Part shown: positions 995-57,721 of the stretch, piece after piece
Position numbering within the stretch: the stretch's first letter is position 1
How the letters are laid out: each line of letters opens with the position of its first letter
Source: Bacteroidales bacterium
GTDB taxonomy: Bacteria; Bacteroidota; Bacteroidia; Bacteroidales; Bacteroidaceae
Direction: 5' to 3'
Length of the DNA: 64,000 bases
Assembly: GCA_015060965.1 (NCBI GenBank)
Contig: SUXN01000009.1
Coordinates: forward strand, 1 to 64,000
Notes under the pieces: model-generated
Told to the model about the DNA's origin: nothing
The model's input: only the letters and a program-made list of their open reading frames with translations
Database searches by the model: none
Made by a program: the position numbers and the translations under genes

Positions 995-1777
995 TCATAG
1001 AACCATTATACCATTGAAAATCCTGCCAGACTCTATTCCTAACCTGCGTGCCGAGAAGAACTCGCTGTAGCGGCTGTAGGTACAGATGCCTGCAATGTGG
1101 ATATTCTCCTGCCTCATGCCTTTTCCGAGCAGTTGCAGTCTGTTGGCCTCCCAAAGGTCGATGTGCCATTTTGTGCCGCCTGTGGCAGTAGGGTAGCGAG
1201 CGGCAATCTTTTCCATCGGGAATCCGCACTCTGCGAACCTCTCGTACACCTCATCGCCAATCTCAAAGGCATCCATTGAAATGCCGGGGGCAATAATGGC
1301 CTTTATGTCTGCAGGGTCGCTGTCGTAATGTTTTATCATTACCTCTATGCATTTCTCGGCAATACGTGCCACTGTACCGCGCCAGCCTGCGTGTATGGCC
1401 GCTACAGCTCTTTTTCCGGTGTCATAGAGCAGTAATGGAATACAATCGGCTGTTGAAACGCCTATGCAGGTTTGTGGAATGTCTGTGACAATGGCGTCAA
1501 TGCCTTCCAGTTTCTCCTTCTGCTCTTCAGTGGTGAGCGCAAGGAAATTCTTGTCTATTACGATTGTCTTGCAGCTGTGTGTCTGGCGTGGGAGGATAAG
1601 TCTGCTGTCATTGACGCCAAGTTCATTGCATAGTATCTCCCTACACTCTGTAACGTGCTCGGCCGTGTCACCGCAGTAGTGTGTTATATTGAACCCGCCA
1701 TAATTGCCGGAGCCTTCTCCACGCTTGGTAGAGAAGGCTCTTGCTCCATTTCCGATATTATATTCAAACAATTCCAT
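995..1777 (-). CDS. pgeF: Purine nucleoside phosphorylase, YfiH/LACC1 family
   Basis: The 260-aa product has the family's zinc-binding and active-site motifs: RQTHSCK with His67, STADCIPLLL with Cys112 and HAGWRGT with His129. Family members, formerly called laccase-domain or polyphenol oxidase proteins, are cytoplasmic enzymes that phosphorolyse purine nucleosides and can deaminate adenosine. The length is normal and the start is ATG. It is the last gene of a tight minus-strand operon with the TonB-C protein (4-base gap) and metY (5-base gap). Nothing in the neighbours explains a purine function, so the operon may just share transcription. Confidence 0.85.
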   Translation of the reverse strand: MELFEYNIGNGARAFSTKRGEGSGNYGGFNITHYCGDTAEHVTECREILCNELGVNDSRLILPRQTHSCKTIVIDKNFLALTTEEQKEKLEGIDAIVTDIPQTCIGVSTADCIPLLLYDTGKRAVAAIHAGWRGTVARIAEKCIEVMIKHYDSDPADIKAIIAPGISMDAFEIGDEVYERFAECGFPMEKIAARYPTATGGTKWHIDLWEANRLQLLGKGMRQENIHIAGICTYSRYSEFFSARRLGIESGRIFNGIMVL

Positions 1778-1781
1778 CCTG

Positions 1782-2405
1782 TTATCGTCCGGGTCTGAAT
1801 GTAAATGTCATGTTGTATATGCGCTCCTTGCCGTTCTCGGGGTCTTTGGCAGGTGTCCAGGCCGGCATTAACTCTGCTACACGCATGGCCTCGGCGTCCA
1901 TCGCCTCGTTGCCGCTGCTTGAGGTTATCTCCATCTTGCCCGGTACTCCGTCGGGGGCAATGGTTATTGAAACGGTTACCTTGCCGCTGATGCGTCTGGC
2001 CTTGCACTCCTCGGGGTACTGCCTGTTGCTTCTGATGAACTCCCTCAATGCTTTTTCACCGCCGGGGTATGTTGGCATGTCTTCTGTGTTCGGTACGTTG
2101 AATACCCCCTGAGTCCTCTGGTTGATCTTTATGGGTGTATCGGTATGCTCCATTGGCTGTTCTGCTGTCATATCCTTTGTAGTATTTGCAGAACTCTCCT
2201 GGGATTTATTGCGCGCGGCAGGTTTCTTTGTCTCTTTAAGTTCCTCTTTGGTCTTTGTGTCAATGGCTTTTCCGGCCTTGTCGGCCTTCATGATCCTCAA
2301 CGGCTTGATGCTGTCAAGAGGCAAAGCGTCAACTCTGGCAGCATTATATGCGCCAGCTGTAGCCGCAAAGGCCAATAATGCGAATATGAGAAGTGACTTG
2401 CGCAT
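1782..2405 (-). CDS. Periplasmic TonB C-terminal-domain protein
   Basis: The 207-aa protein begins with an export signal (MRKSLLIFALLAFAATAGA). A low-complexity Lys/Glu/Thr-rich linker runs to about residue 100. The C-terminal hundred residues form a TonB-C domain, with the typical YPGGEKAL and later ISGKVTVSITIAPDG motifs. The domain is common in Bacteroidota proteins that are not the energising TonB itself: the classical N-terminal ExbB-interacting anchor is not evident here. It sits between metY and pgeF with gaps of 4-5 bases, so it is co-transcribed. Its exact partner cannot be deduced. Confidence 0.8.
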   Translation of the reverse strand: MRKSLLIFALLAFAATAGAYNAARVDALPLDSIKPLRIMKADKAGKAIDTKTKEELKETKKPAARNKSQESSANTTKDMTAEQPMEHTDTPIKINQRTQGVFNVPNTEDMPTYPGGEKALREFIRSNRQYPEECKARRISGKVTVSITIAPDGVPGKMEITSSSGNEAMDAEAMRVAELMPAWTPAKDPENGKERIYNMTFTFRPGR

Positions 2406-2410
2406 GTTTC

Positions 2411-3694
2411 TTAGATTATCTCAAGTGCCTGCTCAATGTCTGCAATTAGGTCGTCAACATCCTCAATGCCTACAGAAAGACGAATCAGGTCCGGGTCAAT
2501 ACCGGCCTCTCTCAGCTGCTCGTCGTTTAGCTGGCGGTGTGTGTGGCTTGCAGGGTTAAGCACGCAAGAGCGGGCGTCGGCAACGTGTGTCACAATGGCA
2601 ATGAGCTTTAGGCTGTCCATGAAGCGGATAGCATCTTCCTTGTCGCCCTTGACTGCAAATGCCATCACTCCGCATCCGCCGTTGGGAACATATTTCTTTG
2701 CAAGTTCATAATATTTGCTGCTTGGCAAACCGCAGTAGTTCACCCATTTTACCTTTGGATGATTCTCGAGGTATTCTGCAATCTTCTGCGCATTCTCGCA
2801 GTGGCGTGGCATACGCAGGTGCAGGGTCTCGAGTCCCAGGTTAAGCAGGAATGCATTCTCGGGTGCCATCATCGCACCCAGGTCGCGCATCACCTGTGCA
2901 ACCATCTTTGTGATGTATGCGGCCTTGCCGAAGTTCTTTGTGTAGATAAGGCCGTGGTAGCTGTGGTCGGGCTCGGTGAGGCAGGTGAATCTGTCATGCT
3001 GTGCCTCCCAGTCAAAGTTGCCGCTGTCCACAACGCAACCGCCTACAGCAACGGCGTGGCCGTCCATATATTTTGTCGTTGAGTGTGTCACGATGTCTGC
3101 TCCCCACTCAATGGGACGGCAGTTCACGGGTGTGGCAAAGGTGTTGTCTACGATTAGGGGCACCCCGTTGCGGTGTGCAATGTCGGCAAATTTCTCGATG
3201 TCGAGCACGTTTACGCTGGGGTTGGAGATTGTCTCGCCGAAGAGGGCCTTTGTGTTGGGGCGGAAAGCCTTCTCTATCTCCTCGGCAGGAGCATCGGCGT
3301 CAACGAATGTGACCTCAATGCCCATCTTCTTCATTGTCACTGCAAAAAGGTTGTATGTGCCGCCATATATTGTGGTAGCCGAAACAAAATGGTCGCCCGA
3401 CTGGCAAATGTTCAGTATCGCATAAAAATTCGCAGCCTGGCCCGATGAGGTCATCACAGCACCGACACCGCCCTCAAGGGCATTGATCTTTGCACCTACA
3501 GCATCAACGGTGGGGTTCTGAAGGCGGCTGTAGAAATAACCGCTGTCCTCAAGGTCGAAGAGGCGTGCCATCTGCTCACTTGTCTCGTATTTGAAAGTTG
3601 TGCTCTGGTAAATGGGGAGTACTCTCGATTCGCCCTTCTTGGGCTGCCAGCCTCCCTGTACACACAATGTTCCTGAATTTAGTTTCTTTGTCAT
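2411..3694 (-). CDS. metY: O-acetylhomoserine sulfhydrylase (Cys/Met metabolism PLP enzyme)
   Basis: The 427-aa protein is a fold-type-I PLP enzyme of the Cys/Met metabolism family. The Schiff-base lysine is Lys208 in HSTTKYMDGH, with SSGQAA at 83-88 and VDNTFATP at 182-189. The N-terminus (GTLCVQGG) and the length of about 427 residues favour O-acetylhomoserine sulfhydrylase (sulfide plus O-acetylhomoserine giving homocysteine and acetate) over cystathionine gamma-synthase, which is nearer 380 residues. It is cytoplasmic and first in the operon with the TonB-C protein and pgeF. Confidence 0.85.
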   Translation of the reverse strand: MTKKLNSGTLCVQGGWQPKKGESRVLPIYQSTTFKYETSEQMARLFDLEDSGYFYSRLQNPTVDAVGAKINALEGGVGAVMTSSGQAANFYAILNICQSGDHFVSATTIYGGTYNLFAVTMKKMGIEVTFVDADAPAEEIEKAFRPNTKALFGETISNPSVNVLDIEKFADIAHRNGVPLIVDNTFATPVNCRPIEWGADIVTHSTTKYMDGHAVAVGGCVVDSGNFDWEAQHDRFTCLTEPDHSYHGLIYTKNFGKAAYITKMVAQVMRDLGAMMAPENAFLLNLGLETLHLRMPRHCENAQKIAEYLENHPKVKWVNYCGLPSSKYYELAKKYVPNGGCGVMAFAVKGDKEDAIRFMDSLKLIAIVTHVADARSCVLNPASHTHRQLNDEQLREAGIDPDLIRLSVGIEDVDDLIADIEQALEII

Positions 3695-3732
3695 ATTTGT
3701 GTTGTTTTAGTTTTCTTTATATAAATCTGTCG

Positions 3733-3740
3733 CGAAGATA
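3733..3740 (-). promoter_or_regulatory. Probable -7 box for metY operon
   Basis: On the minus strand this reads TATCTTCG, one base off TAnnTTTG, about 40 bases upstream of the metY start. No convincing -33 TTTG is seen. Confidence 0.45.
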
Positions 3741-3905
3741 ATACTATTCATTGTGAAAATGTTTTAAATGTTCCGTTTTTTATAAATAATGTTATCGGAA
3801 TCATGTGCCGGAAGATTACGTTTCCATATTTCCTGTGTATATTCTCAATAATGGACCGTTCGTCAATTCTCTTCTCCGGGGCAGTTTTTCGTGGTGTGAA
3901 AATTG

Positions 3906-46461: not shown

Positions 46462-46812
46462 ATGGCACTCAACAAGAATAAGGACTTGAAGATGTATTAC
46501 TCCATTAAGGAGGTTGCAGCGGAACTGCAGGTGACGGAAACCACATTGCGCTATTGGGAGACCGTATTTCCGCAGGTATCTCCTTATAAAGGGGCTAATG
46601 GCGTTCGCCGTTATACAAAGGATGATATCAAGACTTTGCGCACGATATATCATCTTGTCAAGGAGCGTGGGTTAACCCTCTCCGGTGCAAAGAAACAGTT
46701 CAAATCGGGTGGCCCGAAAGAGAGTGCCGAAAATGTAAGCGAGGTCATTGACAGGCTCAAGTCAATCCGTGAGGAACTGCTGGCATTGAAAGAACAACTT
46801 GACAATCTATGA
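46462..46812 (+). CDS. MerR-family transcriptional regulator
   Basis: The 116-aa protein has an N-terminal winged helix (YYSIKEVAAELQVTETTLRYWETVF, then GVRRYTKDDIKTLRTIYHLV) and a C-terminal coiled coil for dimerisation. There are no effector-binding cysteines or extra domain. It starts one base after the M23 stop codon and is co-transcribed with it, a Bacteroidota pairing. The target genes are unknown. Confidence 0.85.
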   Translation: MALNKNKDLKMYYSIKEVAAELQVTETTLRYWETVFPQVSPYKGANGVRRYTKDDIKTLRTIYHLVKERGLTLSGAKKQFKSGGPKESAENVSEVIDRLKSIREELLALKEQLDNL

Positions 46813-46848
46813 TTAGAGGCGACCAACGGTCGCCTCTAATCATAGATT
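46804..46848. terminator. 21-bp-stem terminator shared by merR and the displaced rsh 3' end
   Basis: The perfect stem 46804-46824 with 46828-46848 has the loop AAC. It overlaps the merR stop codon on one side and the stop codon of the rsh remnant on the other, showing that rsh and merR once converged here. Confidence 0.9.
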
Positions 46849-46968
46849 ACCCTATTCTTGCTATAGTCTTGATATTCTGTATCTTCTTAAGGTTTTCGCA
46901 GATGTTCTTTACATCATCCACATCGTGTACGTTGGTCCAGAATGTACCCTCGAAAATGCCGTTGTTAC
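46847..46968 (-). pseudogene. Displaced 3' end of rsh (relA/spoT)
   Basis: These 122 bases match the last 122 bases of the intact rsh gene (55490-55611) at 105 positions (86%). They encode NNGIFEGTFWTNVHDV... and end ...IKTIARIG with its stop, differing by five amino acids from rsh over 40 residues. The homology ends abruptly at 46968, and further upstream the frame meets a stop. The first 15 bases (46847-46861) are identical in both copies. It is a gene-end remnant marking the left edge of the accessory block. Confidence 0.9.
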
Positions 46969-46986
46969 GACGCCGGTCATTTTCCT

Positions 46987-47287
46987 TCAAGCATTTTCTA
47001 AAATAGATTCAAGTAATTCTAATTGTATCTTATAATTATTGGCATCAAGTGGAAGAGGGCTGTCTTCTGTCGGGTATTCACCTGTGGAGCTGTCAATTTG
47101 GTTAGTACCAATCCATTTTTATCTTTATTGTAAATTCCAATCAATAAAGGTTCATTTCTATCTACTTGGTAAGTATATCCATTTTCATAATACACATGAG
47201 AACCAATACTGTCTGGATAATGGTTCGTCTGTGAAAAAATACAGTTTGTAAAAACACGAATAGTGTTGTTAATAAAATCTTTTTCAT
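46987..47287 (-). pseudogene. Decayed and truncated copy A of the small exported-protein family
   Basis: Copy A starts ATG at 47287, 6 bases beyond the stop of copy B. Translation matches the intact family member (51543-52100), but only when two frameshifts are allowed: one within the signal-peptide codons and one near the codons for NKDKNG/WIGTN. The readable pieces include TNCIFSQT, YPDS, YENGYTYQ and STGEYPTEDS. Homology stops after about 97 codons (ESILEN), where the sequence runs into the rsh remnant. It is non-functional. Confidence 0.85.
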
Positions 47288-47293
47288 GTGCAG

Positions 47294-47854
47294 TTACTTA
47301 AATTTGTAGTCATTCCAATAGTATATGTAATTGAACTGTTTTCCGTAATCTGTAACTTCGAATTGTAATCTTTCTTTTATTTTTAGTTCAATTTCTCTGA
47401 ACTTTGATACTGGAATGTACATGTAGTATGATAATCTATAGAAAGAGAAGCGTACATCATCGACTTTACCGGTTATCGGGTTTATGAATAGGTTTATAAA
47501 GCATTCTCTTCCTATACCTGCTTCTTTGATTTTTTTCTTTTCTTCAGTTGAGTATGATTCTTACAGAATAGAAAATAAAACGTTTACTTGTATTCTCCAA
47601 ACGTCGACATCAAGTAAGTTCGGTCCATATTCCAATGGTGGTTCTCCTGTTATTTTATTTACTGGAGTAATTCCAATCCATGTGTTATTTTTGTTATAAA
47701 CATAAATGTCACCACCGCTTGACCTATTAGCCTGGTATGTGTATCCGTTCTCATAAAAAACTTTGGTACCAACACTATCAGGATATATGCTTGTCTGTGA
47801 AAAAATACAGTTTGTAATAAGCAGGAATAGGGTAATTAATAAAATCTTTTTCAT
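47294..47854 (-). pseudogene. Copy B of the small exported-protein family, broken by one in-frame stop
   Basis: Copy B reads MKKILLITLF...NCIFSQTSIYPDS and stays in frame to the end (YYWNDYKFK), except for a single TAA at 47561-47563 where the intact copy has GAA (ILEESY). Its 187 codons therefore hold one nonsense mutation, a recent loss or a sequencing error. The ATG overlaps the stop of the upstream Cys-rich lipoprotein by 4 bases (ATGA). Ends are very like copy C, while the middle (about codons 45-100) differs. Confidence 0.85.
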
Positions 47855-49494
47855 GGACAGTTACTTGAAATTGTTCTTAGATTCTCAAAGTTTGATAATA
47901 AATCAGTCCTATCCTCATATTGATAATTTTTATATCCATCAATAGAGTGATAAGCTTCAATAACTTTTGCGAAAGTTATTTCAAAATCTAATAGGGATAA
48001 ATCTGTCATAGGAGCAATAAAATTACCTTTATAATCAATAAATCTATTTAATTTTTTTATAGCTTCTGTTAGTGGAGTAGTTGTTGATGTGTTATCTTTA
48101 ATTGCTTTTAAAGTATCCGCAAACACTAACTGTGCAAACTTCGCTTCAATCTCTCCATTCAATCTTGATGAATTGTATTTTGCAGTATCATTAATTGTTA
48201 AATAGCGATGAGCGTGCATCATTTCATGCAACAATTGCGTGCAATCCAATTGTTCTCCTAAAACAATACGAATAACATGTTTGTTATTTATTACTTTGTG
48301 CCCGAATTTACCGTTATAATCCTCTGCGATACTAATATACATTGTTTCTCCCTTTTGTAAATTGAATAGCATGTCATATAGATTACCTCCCATACATAGA
48401 CGTGTGATTTTTTCAAGCAAATCACCAATTTTAGTCCACTGTGAATCTGTAAATTCAGAATTATGAAACAAACCCCGTGCTAATTTAATCTTGGCTTCAT
48501 CATATTCTTTATTGTTGTCCGGTGTTTCTGAACCTTCGTGATGATTCTGTTCATACTCAACTTCGTACCATCCGCATTGACAACTCCATTTTGGGAAAAA
48601 ACATTCCTTACATACACATATGCACTCAGAAGTCATTTCTCCGCAATTTGAGCACTTTGCGCATTTGCATCCATTTTGTTCACCACAAATTCTACATGCT
48701 TTAATAACAATGCACTCACAATTTTCTGCGTTACCACCACAAATGCTACAAACAATGTAGTATTCACCCCCAACACCTCTTGTCATTATTACAGTGCTTT
48801 CTTGAAAGGATATTGACATCAAGAGGCTATGCCCATGTTCTGAATCATGGTTGTGGTTCCCCTCTTCTGTGTTTTCAATACTGTTGAAGGCGAGTGTTAG
48901 AGTACCGTTGTTCCTACCATTTGTATAACCGAATCCTTTGATAAGCTGTCCGTTTAGTTCGGAGATGAATACCTTTCCGCAGAACTTATTGTCTCCACTA
49001 AGGTATCTGAAATTTTTCAGCATCTCTTTCGCATCGTTATCGGTATTCTCTATTTCCGGAATTATTGTGGTCACGAACATCTCCATATCCCCATTGCTTC
49101 GTTTTGCAATAAGAAGTCGTCTTTCTGATTCCGGATGGTATTTGTATTCGAACTTTCCGTCCTTGAATATCGTTGCATTGACAAGTGGTACAGATATGGA
49201 ACGCAATGGTATAAGAAATAGTGTTACTTCGCTATTGTGTTCTATGGTTGCACAATCCCAGTTCGGTGTCAGTTCTACAGCTGATGCTCCGTCATTTCTA
49301 GTCTTTACTCTTGCTGACAATGTCAGGGGTTGTAAATCTTCTGCATTCTCTTCAAAGTATGTACGTGCCTCATCAAGCGAGAATGACGAAGTCCATTGCC
49401 CTTCTTTTGATGAATCATTCAACAAGTCGGTACATGATATGTAGACGACATACAGTGATAGAAGGAATAATATAAAGAATATCTTGTGTCTCAT
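47851..49494 (-). CDS. Cys-rich lipoprotein 1 with HExxH C-terminal domain
   Basis: The protein is 547 aa from ATG 49494. An in-frame extension to 49620 crosses the promoter and is rejected. The lipid Cys is near 21 (VYISC). Residues 1-340 are identical to lipoprotein 2. Residues 249-307 hold four tandem CxxC-x5-7-CxC units, probable zinc knuckles. The C-terminal part (341-547) has HEMMH at 423-427 followed by LNGEIEAKFAQ, suggesting a zinc metalloprotease. The C-terminus resembles lipoprotein 2 only distantly. A small exported-protein gene overlaps its stop by 4 bases. I do not recognise the family. The gene is AT-rich compared with flanking core genes. Confidence 0.8.
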   Translation of the reverse strand: MRHKIFFILFLLSLYVVYISCTDLLNDSSKEGQWTSSFSLDEARTYFEENAEDLQPLTLSARVKTRNDGASAVELTPNWDCATIEHNSEVTLFLIPLRSISVPLVNATIFKDGKFEYKYHPESERRLLIAKRSNGDMEMFVTTIIPEIENTDNDAKEMLKNFRYLSGDNKFCGKVFISELNGQLIKGFGYTNGRNNGTLTLAFNSIENTEEGNHNHDSEHGHSLLMSISFQESTVIMTRGVGGEYYIVCSICGGNAENCECIVIKACRICGEQNGCKCAKCSNCGEMTSECICVCKECFFPKWSCQCGWYEVEYEQNHHEGSETPDNNKEYDEAKIKLARGLFHNSEFTDSQWTKIGDLLEKITRLCMGGNLYDMLFNLQKGETMYISIAEDYNGKFGHKVINNKHVIRIVLGEQLDCTQLLHEMMHAHRYLTINDTAKYNSSRLNGEIEAKFAQLVFADTLKAIKDNTSTTTPLTEAIKKLNRFIDYKGNFIAPMTDLSLLDFEITFAKVIEAYHSIDGYKNYQYEDRTDLLSNFENLRTISSNCP

Positions 49495-49498
49495 TTTT
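48475..49498. repeat. 1-kb direct repeat, copy 1
   Basis: About 1024 bases are the same as 52751-53774, offset 4276. The repeat begins at the start-codon region of each lipoprotein gene and ends after codon 340, where a C/T difference at 48474 and then full divergence begin. Such identity beside diverged flanks implies recent duplication or gene conversion. Confidence 0.88.
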
Positions 49499-49506
49499 TT
49501 ATTTCC

Positions 49507-49556
49507 ACCTCGGATATAATTAGTACAGTCTATATCCGAGGTTTGTATCAAAGATA
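49507..49556 (-). promoter_or_regulatory. Promoter and 5'-end hairpin of lipoprotein 1
   Basis: The -7 box TATCTTTG (minus strand) is at 49549-49556. Just downstream, 49531-49542 and 49507-49518 form a 12-bp perfect stem with a 12-base loop at the expected 5' end of the mRNA. The repeat copy 2 has neither this hairpin nor this box. Confidence 0.6.
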
Positions 49557-49613
49557 ATGATTTTGTGTTGAAAAATATAATATCTATGAATAAAAAGAAA
49601 ATATGTTGGCAAA

Positions 49614-51515
49614 TTACCAAAACAAGATTTTTCCATTCTCTATAACAAAAGGGCGTTCTTCAACTCCTGTACTGAGATTTCTCAACCAAAGTAAAGCATT
49701 ATTAGGTACATTTTTATATTCTAAAAAACAATCAGTTGCCACTTTTTTACCTAAAGAATGCCAACCGTTGAGCTCATGATAAAAAAGTTCGTACTCATTA
49801 CCTATATAGATGCTATTTCCGTCACTGCGTGGATAACATATTAGTCTTCTTATTTCAATAGGTTCTTTGAAATCAAAGACTATATAATTGTTTGGCTTAA
49901 CTTCTTGATAATTCAATATATCATTGTCATTGATTTTGTTGTATATGCTGTCACACAGGTAGGGTAGTACTTCTTTGTCCTTACCTATAAATAATAGTTC
50001 TGAAACATACATATTCTTATTATGCATGTTCTTTATACGATAATATCTGTATCTCTTTTTTATGTATAATTCATAGACAATATTGCCACCATAAATATTT
50101 TTGTCAAAATTTATCGTATCACATTTGTTCCAATCATTATTGTCAGAAGCCTCAATTGTGACGTTTTTGACAGATGAAGAATAATCATCCAAAAGCATAT
50201 TGTATGGATATTTACGTTCCAATCTGATTTTGTTGTGTTTTTCGTTGTCTGGAATAAGATATTTGATTTTGTTGTTGCTTTTCAGAATGAATGGATAGTT
50301 GAACGGATGTTTTAAGTTCCCTTTATAATACATTGGAAGATATAAAACATTGTGTCCCATTTTCTTAAAATGGATTCTACTTCCTTTGAACTCAGAAATG
50401 GCGACAGGTTCCCATCTTAAATTGTTGAAGACTGCCAGATATGCATACCTTGGGGAAATATTCTCTTTGATATTTTTGACATAAATATCAGAGCATTTTA
50501 AGTATTCCGAAGTTACATCTTTATAGAAAGGAGTACTGAATAAACTCGGCAGAAATTCGTTTTTGTATTTCTTGTAATCATTTTGTATTGAGAACATTTG
50601 CCTGTATATCTTTGCTGCTGAATAATTCTTGAATATATCCTTATTGCCGTTACAAACTTCTGGTGATATTATTTCGCACCAATAGTGTCTTCCGTTTCTG
50701 TTAGGATGTGCCGGAATAAAATCCAAGGCTGCAGGTATTCCTATTGAACGCAACCATAGCAATTTCATTGTACATGCCCCGAAACAGTTGTTATCAAAAT
50801 CAATTTGTATGAATTTGTTTATGAACTCTCTATTTGCGATAGATCCTTGTGTGTTGAAAGAGTTTTCTAGTTGTAATATACTCTGCTTAGAGATGTTTGG
50901 AGTGTTTGTATACCAGTCGTATATCTGCTGTTTTTCTATAGAATCCAACCAAATGTCAAATTGTTCACTCTCAATTCTGTATGGAAGAATATATTCGAGA
51001 AAATCATCAAAGGGAATATCTTGCAACCACCATGTGTTATCCTTTATCCTGAAGGCTGCTTCTATATGATTTATAAGATAATCTGAAGAAATATTTTCAA
51101 CATCGTTTTTGTGCTGTATCGATTCGTTATGACTCAATGAATAGCTCATTAAAATGTCCAAAACTTTCCTAGAAAAATATTCAATGGAATCAATGCTTTC
51201 GAAATCTTTTTTGTATGTTTCTGGTAATTTCTTTCTTACACTTTTGCCGTTCTTTCTATATTTATCAATATCATCTCCGCTCAAAGTGTAATGTCCAGGC
51301 ATGTTTTCTATCAGGAATTTTACAGCCTTCAATTTAAGTATATCTTCGCTACTACCCTCATAATATGAAATAGCCTTTTCCAGCTCTTTTCTGTTATCAC
51401 CGGATAAGTTTAGGGCAGTGTTAATTTTACAATTGGCTTGGTTGCATGCAACCAAGCCAATTGTAAATGACAGAAATACATATTCCTTTATCTTTGTTAG
51501 TGTTTTATTTGGCAC
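49614..51515 (-). CDS. Transglutaminase-like lipoprotein
   Basis: The 633-aa product starts at GTG 51515; no ATG lies in a suitable place. The SPII signal FTIGLVAC has the lipid Cys at 24. A helical region (35-235) leads to a transglutaminase-like core with CFGACTMKLLWLRSIGIPA (Cys244 or Cys248) and GRHYWCEI (His277). The C-terminal third is beta-rich with a discoidin-like segment (VFDFKEPIEIRRLICYPRSDG). Related Bacteroidales proteins are surface lipoproteins of unknown role, either a peptidase or cross-linking enzyme. A 42-bp palindrome spans the lipobox codons. It follows copy C by 27 bases. Confidence 0.7.
   Translation of the reverse strand: MPNKTLTKIKEYVFLSFTIGLVACNQANCKINTALNLSGDNRKELEKAISYYEGSSEDILKLKAVKFLIENMPGHYTLSGDDIDKYRKNGKSVRKKLPETYKKDFESIDSIEYFSRKVLDILMSYSLSHNESIQHKNDVENISSDYLINHIEAAFRIKDNTWWLQDIPFDDFLEYILPYRIESEQFDIWLDSIEKQQIYDWYTNTPNISKQSILQLENSFNTQGSIANREFINKFIQIDFDNNCFGACTMKLLWLRSIGIPAALDFIPAHPNRNGRHYWCEIISPEVCNGNKDIFKNYSAAKIYRQMFSIQNDYKKYKNEFLPSLFSTPFYKDVTSEYLKCSDIYVKNIKENISPRYAYLAVFNNLRWEPVAISEFKGSRIHFKKMGHNVLYLPMYYKGNLKHPFNYPFILKSNNKIKYLIPDNEKHNKIRLERKYPYNMLLDDYSSSVKNVTIEASDNNDWNKCDTINFDKNIYGGNIVYELYIKKRYRYYRIKNMHNKNMYVSELLFIGKDKEVLPYLCDSIYNKINDNDILNYQEVKPNNYIVFDFKEPIEIRRLICYPRSDGNSIYIGNEYELFYHELNGWHSLGKKVATDCFLEYKNVPNNALLWLRNLSTGVEERPFVIENGKILFW
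51426..51467. repeat. 42-bp perfect palindrome inside the transglutaminase-like gene
   Basis: Bases 51426-51446 are the exact reverse complement of 51447-51467, centred on TGCATGCA. It encodes roughly TIGLVACNQANCK, that is, the lipobox. There is no T-run on either side, so it is not a usual terminator. In mRNA it would form a 20-bp hairpin some 50 bases after the start codon. Confidence 0.95.
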
Positions 51516-51542
51516 AATTGAATGATTTGTTGAAACGTGTTC

Positions 51543-52100
51543 TTATTCAAAATTATAGTTATGGAAATCATAAATATAATTAAGTTCTTTTCCATAGTCT
51601 GTAACTTCGAATTGTAATCTTTCTTTTATTTTTAATTCTATTTCTCTGAATTTTGATACTGGAATGTACATGTAATAAGATAACCTGAAAAAAGAGAAAC
51701 GTACATCATCGACTTTTCCTGTCTCCGGATTTATAAATAGTTCTACAAAACCAATTCCTTTTCTTCCAACTCTTTTTATTTTTTCTTTTTCTTCGTTAGA
51801 ATAAGACTCTTCTAAAATTGAATACAAATTCTCCGTTTGTTTATACCATTCATTTGATTCAAGATCCGGGGTGTTTTCGTCTGGAAAATCCCCTGTGAGC
51901 TTATGGATTTTTGCTATGTTAATCCATTTATTATCGCTGTTATACACTTTGATGATTCCACTTCCTAATCTCTCTGCTTGGTATGTGTATCCGTTCTCAT
52001 AAAAAACTTTGGTACCAACACTATCAGGATAAATGCTTGTCTGTGAAAAAATACAGTTTGTAATAAACAAGAATAGGGTAATTAATAAAATATTTTTCAT
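51543..52100 (-). CDS. Small exported protein, intact copy C
   Basis: The product is 185 aa from ATG 52100; a TTG two codons upstream is less likely. It has a signal peptide (MKNILLITLFLFITNCIFSQ), then YPDSVGTKVFYENGYTYQAERL, a variable middle, and a conserved end with NPETGKVDDVRFSFFRLSYYMYIPVSKFREIE. It is predicted to be periplasmic or surface-located. The ATG overlaps the stop of Cys-rich lipoprotein 2 by 4 bases, so the two are coupled and may act together. The family is unknown to me; inhibitor, chaperone or partner of the upstream protein are all possible. Confidence 0.75.
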   Translation of the reverse strand: MKNILLITLFLFITNCIFSQTSIYPDSVGTKVFYENGYTYQAERLGSGIIKVYNSDNKWINIAKIHKLTGDFPDENTPDLESNEWYKQTENLYSILEESYSNEEKEKIKRVGRKGIGFVELFINPETGKVDDVRFSFFRLSYYMYIPVSKFREIELKIKERLQFEVTDYGKELNYIYDFHNYNFE

Positions 52101-53770
52101 TGGCAATTCTTAGTTATAGTTCGTAAATTTTTAAAATTAGATAAGGCTGTACGATTTGAATCGTACTTATATTTTTCTTTAGAGTATGTTGGACTTGATT
52201 TGTATTCTTTTATAATATTTGTAACATGATTTTCAAGTTCAATTTCTGAGACATCATTATTAAGTTTGCCATATTCATCAATGAACATATAAAGATACGC
52301 GATTTCGATTCTGTATGCATATTGGGGATCTACAGGAAATGTAATATTAGCTTTTATGGCATTTTTATATACAAGTTGTGTATATTGTGCTTCAATTTCT
52401 CCATTTAGGTTTGAAGAGTTATATGCATTGCTATTCTCTTCCGTATAAAAACGGTATGCATGCATTAATTCATGTAGTAGATTATTGCTTTCATAATTTT
52501 CCCCCAAAGTAATTCCGAGAACTTTGCCTGTTGAGAATTTAATTTCGTGTTCATCATATGCTGCATTATCAATTGGACCAAACAAACAATTTTTTATATT
52601 CCTATATTTAATATACAAGGTTTGTCCTTTTAGCGAATCCGATAAAATCCTGCATAATTCTTTTCCCAAGCAAGTGCTCTGTATTTTTTTTAGTGAGTCG
52701 TCAAGTTTCTGCCATACAGAGTCTGGTAATTCGGAATTATGAAACAAATCCCGTGCTAATTTAATCTTGGCTTCATCATATTCTTTATTGTTGTCCGGTG
52801 TTTCTGAACCTTCGTGATGATTCTGTTCATACTCAACTTCGTACCATCCGCATTGACAACTCCATTTTGGGAAAAAACATTCCTTACATACACATATGCA
52901 CTCAGAAGTCATTTCTCCGCAATTTGAGCACTTTGCGCATTTGCATCCATTTTGTTCACCACAAATTCTACATGCTTTAATAACAATGCACTCACAATTT
53001 TCTGCGTTACCACCACAAATGCTACAAACAATGTAGTATTCACCCCCAACACCTCTTGTCATTATTACAGTGCTTTCTTGAAAGGATATTGACATCAAGA
53101 GGCTATGCCCATGTTCTGAATCATGGTTGTGGTTCCCCTCTTCTGTGTTTTCAATACTGTTGAAGGCGAGTGTTAGAGTACCGTTGTTCCTACCATTTGT
53201 ATAACCGAATCCTTTGATAAGCTGTCCGTTTAGTTCGGAGATGAATACCTTTCCGCAGAACTTATTGTCTCCACTAAGGTATCTGAAATTTTTCAGCATC
53301 TCTTTCGCATCGTTATCGGTATTCTCTATTTCCGGAATTATTGTGGTCACGAACATCTCCATATCCCCATTGCTTCGTTTTGCAATAAGAAGTCGTCTTT
53401 CTGATTCCGGATGGTATTTGTATTCGAACTTTCCGTCCTTGAATATCGTTGCATTGACAAGTGGTACAGATATGGAACGCAATGGTATAAGAAATAGTGT
53501 TACTTCGCTATTGTGTTCTATGGTTGCACAATCCCAGTTCGGTGTCAGTTCTACAGCTGATGCTCCGTCATTTCTAGTCTTTACTCTTGCTGACAATGTC
53601 AGGGGTTGTAAATCTTCTGCATTCTCTTCAAAGTATGTACGTGCCTCATCAAGCGAGAATGACGAAGTCCATTGCCCTTCTTTTGATGAATCATTCAACA
53701 AGTCGGTACATGATATGTAGACGACATACAGTGATAGAAGGAATAATATAAAGAATATCTTGTGTCTCAT
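52097..53770 (-). CDS. Cys-rich lipoprotein 2 with HExxH C-terminal domain
   Basis: The 557-aa protein is identical to lipoprotein 1 over residues 1-340 (signal, lipid Cys 21, four CxxC-CxC zinc-knuckle units at 249-307). From 341 on it diverges: HELMH at 433-437, then LNGEIEAQYTQLV. The C-terminal domains keep a common scaffold (HExMHA, NGEIEA, final ...LSNF.NLRTI..NC) but have many substitutions and indels. It is followed with a 4-base overlap by the intact small-protein gene. It has its own promoter (53782-53789). It is unrecognised as a named family; a metalloprotease activity is inferred from the motif only. Confidence 0.8.
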   Translation of the reverse strand: MRHKIFFILFLLSLYVVYISCTDLLNDSSKEGQWTSSFSLDEARTYFEENAEDLQPLTLSARVKTRNDGASAVELTPNWDCATIEHNSEVTLFLIPLRSISVPLVNATIFKDGKFEYKYHPESERRLLIAKRSNGDMEMFVTTIIPEIENTDNDAKEMLKNFRYLSGDNKFCGKVFISELNGQLIKGFGYTNGRNNGTLTLAFNSIENTEEGNHNHDSEHGHSLLMSISFQESTVIMTRGVGGEYYIVCSICGGNAENCECIVIKACRICGEQNGCKCAKCSNCGEMTSECICVCKECFFPKWSCQCGWYEVEYEQNHHEGSETPDNNKEYDEAKIKLARDLFHNSELPDSVWQKLDDSLKKIQSTCLGKELCRILSDSLKGQTLYIKYRNIKNCLFGPIDNAAYDEHEIKFSTGKVLGITLGENYESNNLLHELMHAYRFYTEENSNAYNSSNLNGEIEAQYTQLVYKNAIKANITFPVDPQYAYRIEIAYLYMFIDEYGKLNNDVSEIELENHVTNIIKEYKSSPTYSKEKYKYDSNRTALSNFKNLRTITKNCQ

Positions 53771-53774
53771 TTTA
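52751..53774. repeat. 1-kb direct repeat, copy 2
   Basis: It matches 48475-49498 without a visible difference. The copies lie in the same orientation 4276 bases apart, and recombination between them would delete the intervening transglutaminase-like and small-protein genes and swap C-terminal domains. Confidence 0.88.
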
Positions 53775-53839: not shown

Positions 53840-55477
53840 TTATTGAGATAGACTTTCCAAAAAGATTTTCATTTCGTTGCGTATTCTGATAACCGTTGAA
53901 TTCACGATTTTTACTTTGAATTCAAGTATTTCTATAGCAGTTTCTTTAGCCTTATTTTTATCTCCTGTTTCGATATGTAATTGAAACAGATGAAAACGTG
54001 GAAGTATGCGTGATGGAACCATCTTTTTTGATTGTTCAAAAGAGATAAGTGCTTCATCATATCTTTTCTGCTTCAGGTAGCATACTCCTAATATATCAAG
54101 CATTCTTGAATTTGGATTGATTCTATTTACTTGTTCCAATATGGGAATGGCTTTCTCATATTCATTATTGTTGAAAAGACATTCTCCATAACGGTTCATG
54201 TATAATGCTGAACTGGATAATATGGGATATGAATTTTTTATGTCTTTTTCGCTTGCGATACAATTTTTATAATGTATGAATGCGATAGCTATGTTTATAA
54301 TTATCAACAGAGTTATAGCTATCTTGGCGGTTTTTCCAATATTGATGCTCAAGATTGATTTATAATCGTAATTACTTAAACATGCTATTATGGTTGTAAA
54401 TAACAAGACAAAGAATAATTCATTGAACGGGTAACTGAATAGAAGGAAGCAGCAGAATCCAGAAAGTAATGATTTGTAGTAAAATATATTGTGACTATCT
54501 GTGCTAATTGTCGAAAGGCTTTTGATAATTATGCTTGTAAAAAGTATTAAACCTATAATTCCGGTCTCACAGCCAATATGTATAAATTCATTAAAGGCAA
54601 AATAGTTGTCGTCAGCTATGACTGAGAAAACTGATTCCGGGTGTCGTGACAGCCATTCACCTTGTGCAGGCATGTACATGGCTTTGAATGATGAAACGCC
54701 ATGTCCTGAAATTGGTGAAGAACAAAAGATTCCCAAAGAAATAAGGTTGATGTATAACCGACCGATAACAGATACGGGGCGTAAAGTGTAAAGGTAAAGG
54801 CTTAATAAAAGTAAAATCGGGATAGATATGTAAATGAATTTCTTGTTCTTGTATAGTTGGAACATATACGTGAACCCTATGATAAGTGCCAGCCATGCAG
54901 TTCTCGATTGTGATAGATATAATGCGTAAAATAATAAAGTAATGCATGGCAGGATTATGAATACCGATTTCTTCTTGTTGACATACAGAAAAAATCCGGA
55001 TATTATAGACAGTGACAGATATATGCCCAATAGTGCCGTTGTGTCAAAAGTTCCTGTTGTTTTGTAGAATAGGTTGTAATGTGGCATTAAACCAAAGTAT
55101 TGCATCATTACGGTTACACCTTGTATACAACCGCCACAAAATAGTAAATAGGGCAATGAACTTTTAACCGAACCGCATCTTATATAGATATAAGCATATA
55201 ATGCAATAATAAATATTGAAACTGAAGAAAAATCGGTAGGTATACTTGAAAAGATAACCTTAAAACAGCCCCATACAAATAGGAACAAAGATAAGATGTC
55301 TATTGTGTTAATATGTATTACTTTAGTATGGAATATCTTTATTAGTAGAATTGATGGCAATACACAATATAATGTTAATTCTGTGATACTTCTTCCTGTA
55401 CTGTCAAAGCTTTTGTCTAGTATTGGCAGAACTATTATATACAGAACCGGAAATAATATAAGCATGTTCTTTAGCAT
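53840..55477 (-). CDS. O-antigen-ligase/Wzy-like membrane protein with C-terminal TPRs
   Basis: The 545-aa protein has about 11 membrane helices in residues 1-415. A Wzy_C/ligase-type periplasmic loop (SSPISGHGVSSFKAMYMPAQGEWLSRHP...DNYFAFNEFIHIGCETG) lies near 255-310. About three TPR-like helical repeats follow at 430-520 (YGECLFNNNEYEKAIPILEQVNRINP, CYLKQKRYDEALISFEQSKK). Such proteins transfer glycan chains to lipid A, pilins or proteins. It is AT-rich, begins 12 bases after the rsh stop and takes the last place in that core operon, although it belongs to the accessory block. It might glycosylate the neighbouring lipoproteins. Confidence 0.75.
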   Translation of the reverse strand: MLKNMLILFPVLYIIVLPILDKSFDSTGRSITELTLYCVLPSILLIKIFHTKVIHINTIDILSLFLFVWGCFKVIFSSIPTDFSSVSIFIIALYAYIYIRCGSVKSSLPYLLFCGGCIQGVTVMMQYFGLMPHYNLFYKTTGTFDTTALLGIYLSLSIISGFFLYVNKKKSVFIILPCITLLFYALYLSQSRTAWLALIIGFTYMFQLYKNKKFIYISIPILLLLSLYLYTLRPVSVIGRLYINLISLGIFCSSPISGHGVSSFKAMYMPAQGEWLSRHPESVFSVIADDNYFAFNEFIHIGCETGIIGLILFTSIIIKSLSTISTDSHNIFYYKSLLSGFCCFLLFSYPFNELFFVLLFTTIIACLSNYDYKSILSINIGKTAKIAITLLIIINIAIAFIHYKNCIASEKDIKNSYPILSSSALYMNRYGECLFNNNEYEKAIPILEQVNRINPNSRMLDILGVCYLKQKRYDEALISFEQSKKMVPSRILPRFHLFQLHIETGDKNKAKETAIEILEFKVKIVNSTVIRIRNEMKIFLESLSQ

Positions 55478-55489
55478 AATTCTTCGCTC

Positions 55490-57721
55490 TTACCCTATTC
55501 TTGCAATGGTCTTGATGTTCTTTATCTTCTTGAGATTCTCGCAGATGTTCTTTACCTCCTCCACATCGTGTACATTTATCCAGAACGTGCCTTCAAAAAT
55601 GCCGTCGTTACTCTCGATGTGCATCTTCTGTATGTTGGCATTCAGCTGCTGGTAGATTATTGTAGTGATTTCATGGAGCACTCCCATGTCATCTATGCCC
55701 TTGATTTGAATGGGGACTGCGAAATATAACTGTTTGTGTGTCTCCCACTTTGCGGCAAGTATCCTGTCGCCGTGGCTGCTCTTCAGGGTGTTGGCGTGCG
55801 GGCAACTGCGTTTGTGTATTACGATATGTTTATCCTCGTCATAGTATCCGAGGACATCGTCACCGGGAATGGGGTGACAGCAGTCGGCTATAATGTAGCT
55901 GCTTTTGAGATTGTCATCGGTGAGGTTGATGGCTTTCTTGCGGTCGATATTCTCGTATTTCTCGACCTCTTTCTCCTCTTTCTTCTTGTCGCGGTTGAAA
56001 GAGAACAGTGACTGGAAACTGAACTTCTTGTTACCTAAGAGCTCGTCCTTGTCTTCTGCTCCAAGAATAATCGTGCCCTTGCCGATGGCAGCCAACAGCT
56101 CGTCACGGTCTTTCAGCTTATGGCGCTTCCACAGCTTCTCGACATTGCCTGCATAGTTGCTGAGTCCCTCTTCCTCGAGGAATGCGTTCAGCTTCTCCTC
56201 ACCGTCGCGTTGCAGCAGTCTCTGCTGTCGACGCAGTGCTGCCTGTATCTTGGAACGTGCCTTGGCTGTCGTTACAAAAGAAAGCCAACTCTCCTCCACG
56301 CGTGGAGCGTTTGAGGTGAGGATTTCCACCTGGTCACCGCTCTGCAGCTGGTGGTTCATGGGCACGAGTCTGTGGTTTACCTTTGCGCCTATGCAGTGGT
56401 TGCCAAGGAATGTGTGTATGCTGTATGCGAGGTCAAGCGCAGTACAGTTCTGCGGCATTGTCTTGATCTCTCCTTTGGGAGTAAAAACGAAAATCTCTGT
56501 TGCGTAGAGGTTCAGTTTTATTGTGTCAAGAAAATCAAGGGCGTTAGGCTGCGGGTCATCGAGAATCTCCTTGATGGTGTGCAGCCAGTTGTCGAGCTGG
56601 TCTTCGTTGGATGCCTCGCCCATACTCTTGTATTTCCAATGGGCTGCAATGCCTTTCTCGGCAACCTCGTTCATCTTCTCGCTTCTTATCTGCACTTCAA
56701 TCCACTCGCCACGTTGGCTCATGAATGTGGCGTGCAGTGCCTTGTAGCCGTTGGTGCGTGGTTTGTTCACCCAATCGCGCAGGCGGTCGGGGTGGGCGTT
56801 GTAGAGCTTGGTAAGTGCAATGTATATGTTGAAGCATTCGTTGTTCTCGTCCTTGCCCTCGCGTGGATTGAAGATGATACGCACGGCAAGGATGTCGAAG
56901 ATATCCTCAAAGGCCACGTGCTTCTTCTGCATCTTGTTCCAGATGGAGTAAGGCGACTTCACGCGGCCTATGATGCGGTAGTCATATCCCATCTTGTCAA
57001 GCTGCTCGCAGATGGGGTGGGTGAACTCAGTATAGAGAATATCGCGTTGTTGCTGTGTCTTCTCGATTTTCTTTTCAATGCGGGCATACTCCTCGGGATG
57101 CTCGTATTTGAAACTGAGGTTCTCAAGTTCGGTCTTTATCTTGCTCAGTCCCAGTCTGTACGCAATGGGGGCATATATATATAAGGTCTCACCGGCAATC
57201 TTGTACTGTTTGTTCACCTGCATGAACTCCAGTGTGCGCATGTTGTGCAGGCGGTCGGCAATCTTTATCAGGATTACTCGTATGTCCTCACTCATGGTGA
57301 GCAGGAGTTTCTTGAAGTTCTCGGCCTGTTCCGATGCATGGGCACCGAACACCCCGCCCGAGATTTTTGTCAGGCCGTCTACGATGCCTGCAATTTTGTC
57401 ACCGAAAAGGTTCTTGATGTCATCGACAGTGTAGTCGGTGTCTTCGACAACGTCGTGGAGAAGTGCTGCGCAGATGGATGTGGAACCCAAGCCAATCTCT
57501 TTGCACACGATACGTGCTACTGCCAGCGGGTGCATGATGTAGGGCTCGCCGCTGTGGCGGCGTACGCCCTTATGTGCCTGACGTGCAAAGTTGAAAGCCT
57601 TTGTTATAAGCTCAACCTTCTTGCGGTGCTGCGAAGCCAAATAAATGTCGAGCAGCTCCTGGAAAGCGCTGTTTATCGCACTCTCCTCGTCGATCATCCT
57701 TTTCTCCTCGTAGTTGTCCAT
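55490..57721 (-). CDS. relA: Bifunctional (p)ppGpp synthetase/hydrolase, RSH family
   Basis: The 743-aa protein has an HD hydrolase domain with LLHDVVED (His89, Asp90), so hydrolase activity is likely. The synthetase domain (GRVKSPYSIWNKMQKK, IFDILAVRIIF) follows, then TGS (IFVFTPKGEIKTMPQ near 395), a helical/zinc-finger region (IADCCHPIPGDDVLGY) and a C-terminal ACT domain. It is the usual long RSH of Bacteroidota, controlling the stringent response. It is fifth in the parA-parB-DUF5683-mltD-rsh operon. The last 122 bases are duplicated at 46847. Confidence 0.94.
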   Translation of the reverse strand: MDNYEEKRMIDEESAINSAFQELLDIYLASQHRKKVELITKAFNFARQAHKGVRRHSGEPYIMHPLAVARIVCKEIGLGSTSICAALLHDVVEDTDYTVDDIKNLFGDKIAGIVDGLTKISGGVFGAHASEQAENFKKLLLTMSEDIRVILIKIADRLHNMRTLEFMQVNKQYKIAGETLYIYAPIAYRLGLSKIKTELENLSFKYEHPEEYARIEKKIEKTQQQRDILYTEFTHPICEQLDKMGYDYRIIGRVKSPYSIWNKMQKKHVAFEDIFDILAVRIIFNPREGKDENNECFNIYIALTKLYNAHPDRLRDWVNKPRTNGYKALHATFMSQRGEWIEVQIRSEKMNEVAEKGIAAHWKYKSMGEASNEDQLDNWLHTIKEILDDPQPNALDFLDTIKLNLYATEIFVFTPKGEIKTMPQNCTALDLAYSIHTFLGNHCIGAKVNHRLVPMNHQLQSGDQVEILTSNAPRVEESWLSFVTTAKARSKIQAALRRQQRLLQRDGEEKLNAFLEEEGLSNYAGNVEKLWKRHKLKDRDELLAAIGKGTIILGAEDKDELLGNKKFSFQSLFSFNRDKKKEEKEVEKYENIDRKKAINLTDDNLKSSYIIADCCHPIPGDDVLGYYDEDKHIVIHKRSCPHANTLKSSHGDRILAAKWETHKQLYFAVPIQIKGIDDMGVLHEITTIIYQQLNANIQKMHIESNDGIFEGTFWINVHDVEEVKNICENLKKIKNIKTIARIG

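Follow-up and report, generated by a model that had tools for sequence, protein, structure and literature searches.

A likely polymorphic lipoprotein toxin–immunity cluster inserted after a spoT-type gene in gut Bacteroidaceae

The 64,000-nucleotide (nt) stretch of DNA analysed in this study (the window; positions 1 to 64,000 of contig SUXN01000009.1, assembly GCA_015060965.1) belongs to a 2.59-Mb draft genome of a Bacteroidales bacterium of the Bacteroidaceae, consisting of 69 contigs and ca. 95% complete. All coordinates follow the window numbering. The window contains a cluster with two lipoprotein genes, whose products are hereafter called effectors A and B, each composed of an N-terminal head and a C-terminal tail. 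Every gene of the cluster is on the minus strand, and in the order of transcription the cluster comprises a spoT-type gene, a Wzy_C-TPR gene, lipoprotein B, a DUF5043 gene, a transglutaminase-like gene, lipoprotein A, a stop-interrupted DUF5043 gene, a DUF5043 remnant, and a copy of the spoT 3′ end (Table 1). Each effector gene overlaps the next small exported open reading frame (ORF) by 4 bp (47851–47854 for A and 52097–52100 for B). Both overlaps had been pointed out in the original prediction made from the window; however, the ORF taken there as the small exported-protein gene following A (47561–47854) is part of a DUF5043 gene broken by an in-frame stop.

Base-by-base comparison of the two lipoprotein genes revealed a block of 1,024 bp with zero mismatches at an offset of 4276. 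The identity of the ca. 1-kb blocks noticed earlier was therefore confirmed, while their coordinates had been shifted by one. The block spans from 3 bp 5′ of both ATGs (49494 and 53770) through codon 340, where it ends as sharply as described. Immediately upstream of the block, identity is at the background level and the regions are unrelated. Downstream, the tails of A and B share 43% identical residues, and both contain the HExMHA (HEMMHA and HELMHA) and NGEIEA motifs, as expected of diverged tails that keep these motifs. This exact repeat is far beyond chance. The identical heads would most simply be explained by gene conversion or by a recent duplication restricted to the high-homology part; since there is no homology upstream and the tails downstream are too different, a conversion or duplication limited to the head would explain both sharp borders. 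In an independent genome (locus L045; L and G numbers are our labels for loci and genomes), heads with ca. 85–100% DNA identity carry unrelated tails.

To characterize the tail, 14 tails were aligned, in which H93, E94, H97, E118, and E120 were invariant. The AlphaFold model of the tail (14 sequences; pLDDT 87.4, pTM 0.87) places HExxH on helix 88–103 and the invariant N-x-E-x-E on helix 114–131. The tail is a predicted HExxH zinc peptidase with a probable zincin fold. The zinc-protease role proposed for these proteins is thus supported by the two invariant motifs and by the confident model, to which zincins aligned best at moderate Z scores, and no tail lacking the zinc site was encountered, the motif being present in 14/14 aligned tails. 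In VIA-align 2 the tail also resembled clostridial light chains, which was taken as a generic zincin core only, because thermolysin and aminopeptidase N score alike. Foldseek against the PDB gave no significant match for the tail, a PDB sequence search with the tail profile gave no match, and the effectors were unmatched in PADLOC and NCBIfam.

A lipobox was present in the 26 listed effectors. Asp or Glu was found at +3 or +4 after the lipobox in 24/26 effectors but in only 15/41 of the remaining lipoproteins predicted at these loci (P = 4e-6). In surface lipoproteins of Bacteroides fragilis, acidic residues are enriched after the lipobox Cys, mostly at +3/+4 (PMC5080379). The acidic residues of the heads fit surface lipoproteins that follow lipoprotein export signal (LES)-type export, suggesting surface exposure. 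The closest subset of heads has conserved Cys residues, which may serve in metal binding or form disulfides. The AlphaFold model of the head (pLDDT 61.8) was poor outside the core and disordered in the Cys-rich part, and Foldseek against the PDB gave no significant match for the head.

A whole-protein search with effector B gave matches in 14/301 genomes of the family, several of them to the head only or the tail only, and a profile of 20 heads had matches in 26/399 genomes. When heads and tails were searched separately, a single head family indeed proved to carry many tails, and a given tail could occur on several heads. In relatives from Bacteroidaceae and other Bacteroidales, the head family is combined with six or more classes of peptidase- or amidase-like tail: M91-like zincin tails (the window and several Bacteroides; below the Pfam cut-off), other HExxH tails (L045, L031, and L048; assigned from motifs read in the sequences), M23 tails (L026, L030, and L176; strong in Pfam), C39-like tails (L107, L163, L167, and L173, with L164 weaker; above the Pfam cut-off in two), CHAP/NlpC-like tails (L024, L027, L028, L045, and L175; likewise assigned from motifs), and JAB-like tails (L032, L033, L049, L165, L166, L168, and L169; below the Pfam cut-off). 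Unrelated tails follow near-identical heads within L045 (7141 vs 13895) and when L030 is compared with L163. Conversely, the tails of Bacteroides sp. 224 and B. timonensis are 62% identical and their partners 61%, with heads just 25% identical. On the head tree, the tail class requires 15 changes (minimum, 9; shuffled mean, 18.7). Heads and tails are thus partly associated by descent, yet often exchanged; co-evolution was not strict, and the case of heads and tails always co-evolving did not occur.

The gene following the effector encodes an exported protein and mostly overlaps the effector gene or lies ≤20 bp away. We compared tail class with partner family in 39 effectors having a same-strand gene within 110 bp, pairs that are not all independent by descent. 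A one-to-one match was observed in 39/39 pairs, and the observed mutual information was reached by 0/100,000 shuffles, where one tail cluster had been divided in two by motif after the data were seen. Independently of this split, DUF5043 occurred with the M91-like tail in 14/14 pairs and with other tails in 0/25 (Fisher's exact test on 14, 0, 0, 25; P = 7e-11). CHAP/NlpC-like (5/5), C39-like (4/4), and JAB-like (6/6) tails had partner families of their own, DUF6705 being that of the JAB-like tails, and the remaining tails had partners of their own as well. The partner proteins inspected start with a hydrophobic segment that reads as signal-like. In the M91-like set, the distances of partners correlated with those of tails (rho 0.85) more strongly than with those of heads (rho 0.66). 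A structure has been solved for a relative of DUF5043 and was deposited under the label of a hypothetical protein (4QE0). DUF5043 and DUF6705 are candidate immunity families. In L164 (G710, 1619–3887), the gene next to a C39-like-tailed effector overlaps it by 47 bp and is outside all families seen with other tails.

Tandem arrays of partner genes were found in L021, L022, and L029, with up to five DUF5043 genes in tandem (L022), and headless tails in L020 and L025. At the spoT–merR site of G691, two DUF5043 genes with no recognised toxin were read from two contig ends (L221 and L224); these genes are candidate orphan immunity genes. In the congeners G777, G214, G721, and G699, the spoT stop directly abuts the merR side of the window, representing the empty site. 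The duplicated spoT end in the window marks the far border of the insertion. In another congener, G761, a head–tail–DUF5043 stretch is 99.4–99.7% identical to the window within flanks of 84–86% identity, indicating a recent transfer of the cassette between species; the lipoprotein gene of G761 is without its N-terminal part. On one G761 contig, the first 72 bases are from the spoT end and run directly into the tail of B; this could be either a cassette without a head or a chimera at the contig end, and it was given no weight. No effector relatives were found in phage records, plasmid records, or viral contigs. The best explanation for these sequences would be that tails travel together with their immunity gene. 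In L045 (1–19501 of G013), four or five effectors with three tail types form an array with a small gene after each, bounded by a transglutaminase-like gene and a Wzy_C-TPR gene.

Table 1 Features of the lipoprotein cluster in window coordinates.
Feature	Position	Strand	Remarks
Lipoprotein effector B, 557 aa	52097–53770	−	Lipobox; head 52751–53770; probable M91-like zincin tail 52100–52750
Lipoprotein effector A, 547 aa	47851–49494	−	Head 48475–49494, identical to B; diverged tail of the same class 47854–48474
Identical repeat block, copy B, 1,024 bp	52750–53773		
Identical repeat block, copy A, 1,024 bp	48474–49497		
DUF5043, exported, candidate immunity gene of effector B	51543–52100	−	Intact; E = 6.8e-25; 4-bp overlap with effector B
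DUF5043 gene adjoining effector A	47294–47854	−	4-bp overlap; in-frame stop at codon 98 (47561–47563), frame continues to 47294
Third DUF5043 copy, frameshifted and truncated	about 46980–47287	−	
Transglutaminase-like protein, F5/8-type C-terminus	49614–51515	−	Frequent neighbour of such effectors
Wzy_C (O-antigen-ligase-like) protein with TPR repeats	53840–55477	−	Frequent neighbour of such effectors
RelA/SpoT-type gene	55490–57721	−	Cluster inserted after its 3′ end
Duplicated 3′ end of spoT-type gene, 122 bp	46847–46968	−	86% to 55490–55611; far border of insertion

A transglutaminase-like or Wzy_C-TPR gene lies ≤6 kb from the effector in 24/40 loci, from which L107 should be discounted because it was found via its transglutaminase-like gene. 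The pair is also present in many loci without a recognised effector and is a wider Bacteroidales pair (L084, L085, L109, and others), including a copy elsewhere in the genome of the window (C63). It stands beside NVEALA-type short peptides, a propeller-like lipoprotein, and an S26-type signal peptidase in L085, and at a radical-SAM-like peptide locus in L084. A role of the pair in maturation or delivery is a guess. That the transglutaminase-like lipoprotein and Wzy_C-TPR form a dedicated toxin maturation or delivery module, a new Bacteroidota route shared with other exported peptides such as the NVEALA-type ones, is a tentative and rather doubtful proposal; such a module might, for example, attach glycans to surface lipoproteins or process them before release or transfer. 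Among the sheath genes of the type VI secretion system (T6SS), VipB was found in 0/24 carrier genomes and Bacteroidota TssC in 2/24, and neither was found in the ca. 95% complete genome of the window. T6SS carriage of the effectors is therefore unlikely.

Several repeats were observed within and beside the cluster. A perfect 42-bp palindrome (51426–51467) lies within the 5′ part of the transglutaminase-like gene. A stretch of 14–15 nt from the spoT 3′ end (46846–46860 and 55490–55503) has an exact inverted copy where the DUF5043 gene begins (52068–52082), which may be due to chance or may be related to the insertion of the cluster. Just past the duplicated spoT end, a perfect hairpin with 21-bp arms (46804–46848) is probably a terminator common to convergent genes.

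On the basis of a shared head, exchanged tails, a tail-matched exported partner, arrays, orphans, a recent transfer, and an insertion site, we consider it likely that the window holds a polymorphic lipoprotein toxin–immunity cluster of a gut Bacteroidaceae species, probably an uncultured one, inserted after a spoT-type gene. The effectors would be envelope-acting antibacterial toxins. They would be exported by the Sec pathway, anchored by lipid in the outer membrane, and probably displayed on the cell surface, where the head, which stays constant and consists of a small alpha/beta core and then the Cys-rich stretch, would carry an interchangeable enzyme as its C-terminal extension; in effectors A and B, this enzyme is predicted to be an HExxH zinc peptidase. 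Within the envelope of a rival cell, the tail would target peptidoglycan or proteins of the periplasm. Producing cells and their siblings would be shielded by the small exported product of the next, overlapping gene, which in this cluster is a DUF5043 gene.

Some observations weigh against this interpretation. The chief one in this genome is the internal stop (codon 98) in the DUF5043 gene beside effector A; A may be covered by the other DUF5043 or may be inactive, or the stop may be an assembly error. The best VIA-align 2 matches of the tail were zincins with Z of 6.3–7.5, below the guide of 8, so that the zincin fold is probable but not proved. Pfam Peptidase_M91 (PF14891) matched B with 19.2 bits (E = 0.0016), under the curated cut-off of 25 bits, and did not match A. 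The association of heads and tails is partly retained on the tree (15 changes vs 18.7 when shuffled). In addition, no delivery machine was identified, the genome of the window containing no T6SS marker, and we infer toxicity, neutralisation, surface exposure, target, and delivery from sequence.

The effectors might instead be surface or periplasmic peptidases for nutrition, host interaction, or turnover of the own envelope, and not weapons; the exported partner of each would then be its dedicated inhibitor or an aid to its folding. Every recognised tail resembles a peptidase or amidase, nutrition is the function of many surface lipoproteins in Bacteroidales, the frequent transglutaminase-like and Wzy_C-TPR neighbours occur at effector-free loci too, and effector A is retained next to a broken DUF5043 gene. 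However, tandem paralogous partners, toxin-free partners at the same site, patchy presence (26/399 genomes), and interspecies transfer fit conflict better, and we regard a role as such non-weapon peptidases as unlikely. The original prediction had left a choice between polymorphic effectors and antigen variation. In the latter case, a constant anchor would bear an exposed tail that is recombined within one lineage to evade hosts or phages, as might be suggested by the two identical heads that bear different tails in this genome and by the near-identical heads with unrelated tails in L045. In contrast, the genome of the window has two effector copies only and no silent tail library; no flipping device was recognised, the inverted sequences being limited to short repeats, a hairpin, and a single palindrome; and the tails keep their catalytic motifs and a matched partner gene. 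Since the small downstream gene tracks the tail class, toxin and immunity are favoured over antigen variation; the head–tail swaps and the tail-matched partner support the former, and an antigen- or phase-variation device is very improbable.

A different doubt concerns the perfect 1-kb identity itself, which would be an assembly artefact if two similar heads had been smoothed into one or one head had been used twice. A stretch of 1,024 identical bases is difficult for short reads in a draft of this kind (69 contigs, ca. 95% complete), and the G761 contigs break within the lipoprotein gene. Both copies, however, lie on one contig with different flanks and different complete tails, and near-identical heads with unrelated tails occur in independent genomes. 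Such an artefact seems quite unlikely, and the doubt is confined to the perfect identity of this pair, of which the family-level conclusion is independent.

Bacteroidales are a dominant order of the mammalian gut, and the weapons studied there are T6SS effectors and secreted pore-formers. If the toxin–immunity interpretation is true, the cluster would represent a second type of polymorphic toxin carried on a lipoprotein, this one in Bacteroidales, and DUF5043 and DUF6705, both families of unknown function, would gain roles that can be tested. We found nothing naming DUF5043 or DUF6705 or describing this head in the literature covered, most subscription journals being outside its scope. As with the orphan T6SS immunity genes of gut Bacteroidales (PMC12247911, PMC10470768), immunity genes seem to be kept without toxins in the same hosts; unlike T6SS effectors, the effectors described here have a lipobox, and Bacteroidota TssC is absent from the genome of the window and from 22/24 carriers. 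A constant N-terminal part ahead of a variable C-terminal toxin, a matched immunity gene alongside, standalone cassettes, and arrays of immunity genes are features shared with polymorphic toxin systems in general (Zhang et al. 2012, PMC3482391). That catalogue already contains Tox-JAB and HopH1/NleD-like peptidase tails, and this head, DUF5043, and DUF6705 were not seen in the passages covered. The APD1/APD2 heads of Amoebophilus asiaticus, described in the same text, are likewise Bacteroidota lipobox N-terminal domains on polymorphic C-termini. Unlike APD1/APD2, which are predicted to act on the eukaryotic host, the tails described here each have a matched exported partner, which points to bacterial targets.

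The SitA/SitI system of myxobacteria consists of lipoprotein toxins with cytoplasm-acting nuclease tails that are moved by TraA/TraB outer membrane exchange (PMC5562445, PMC8546572). Our effectors share with it a lipoprotein nature, a constant N-terminal part (several unrelated escort families in SitA), an exchangeable C-terminus, a downstream cognate partner, and several copies per genome. In contrast to SitA, the recognised tails are M23, C39-like, JAB-like, and HExxH with no nuclease, the partners are exported, and the phylum is Bacteroidota. Because no nuclease tail was seen, the family was not filed under SitA, the comparison being one of descriptions and not of sequences. The peptidase- and amidase-like tails together with the exported partners suggest an outer-membrane-anchored toxin that attacks only the envelope of the next cell, as opposed to the cytoplasmic nucleases of SitA, and this contrast is directly testable.

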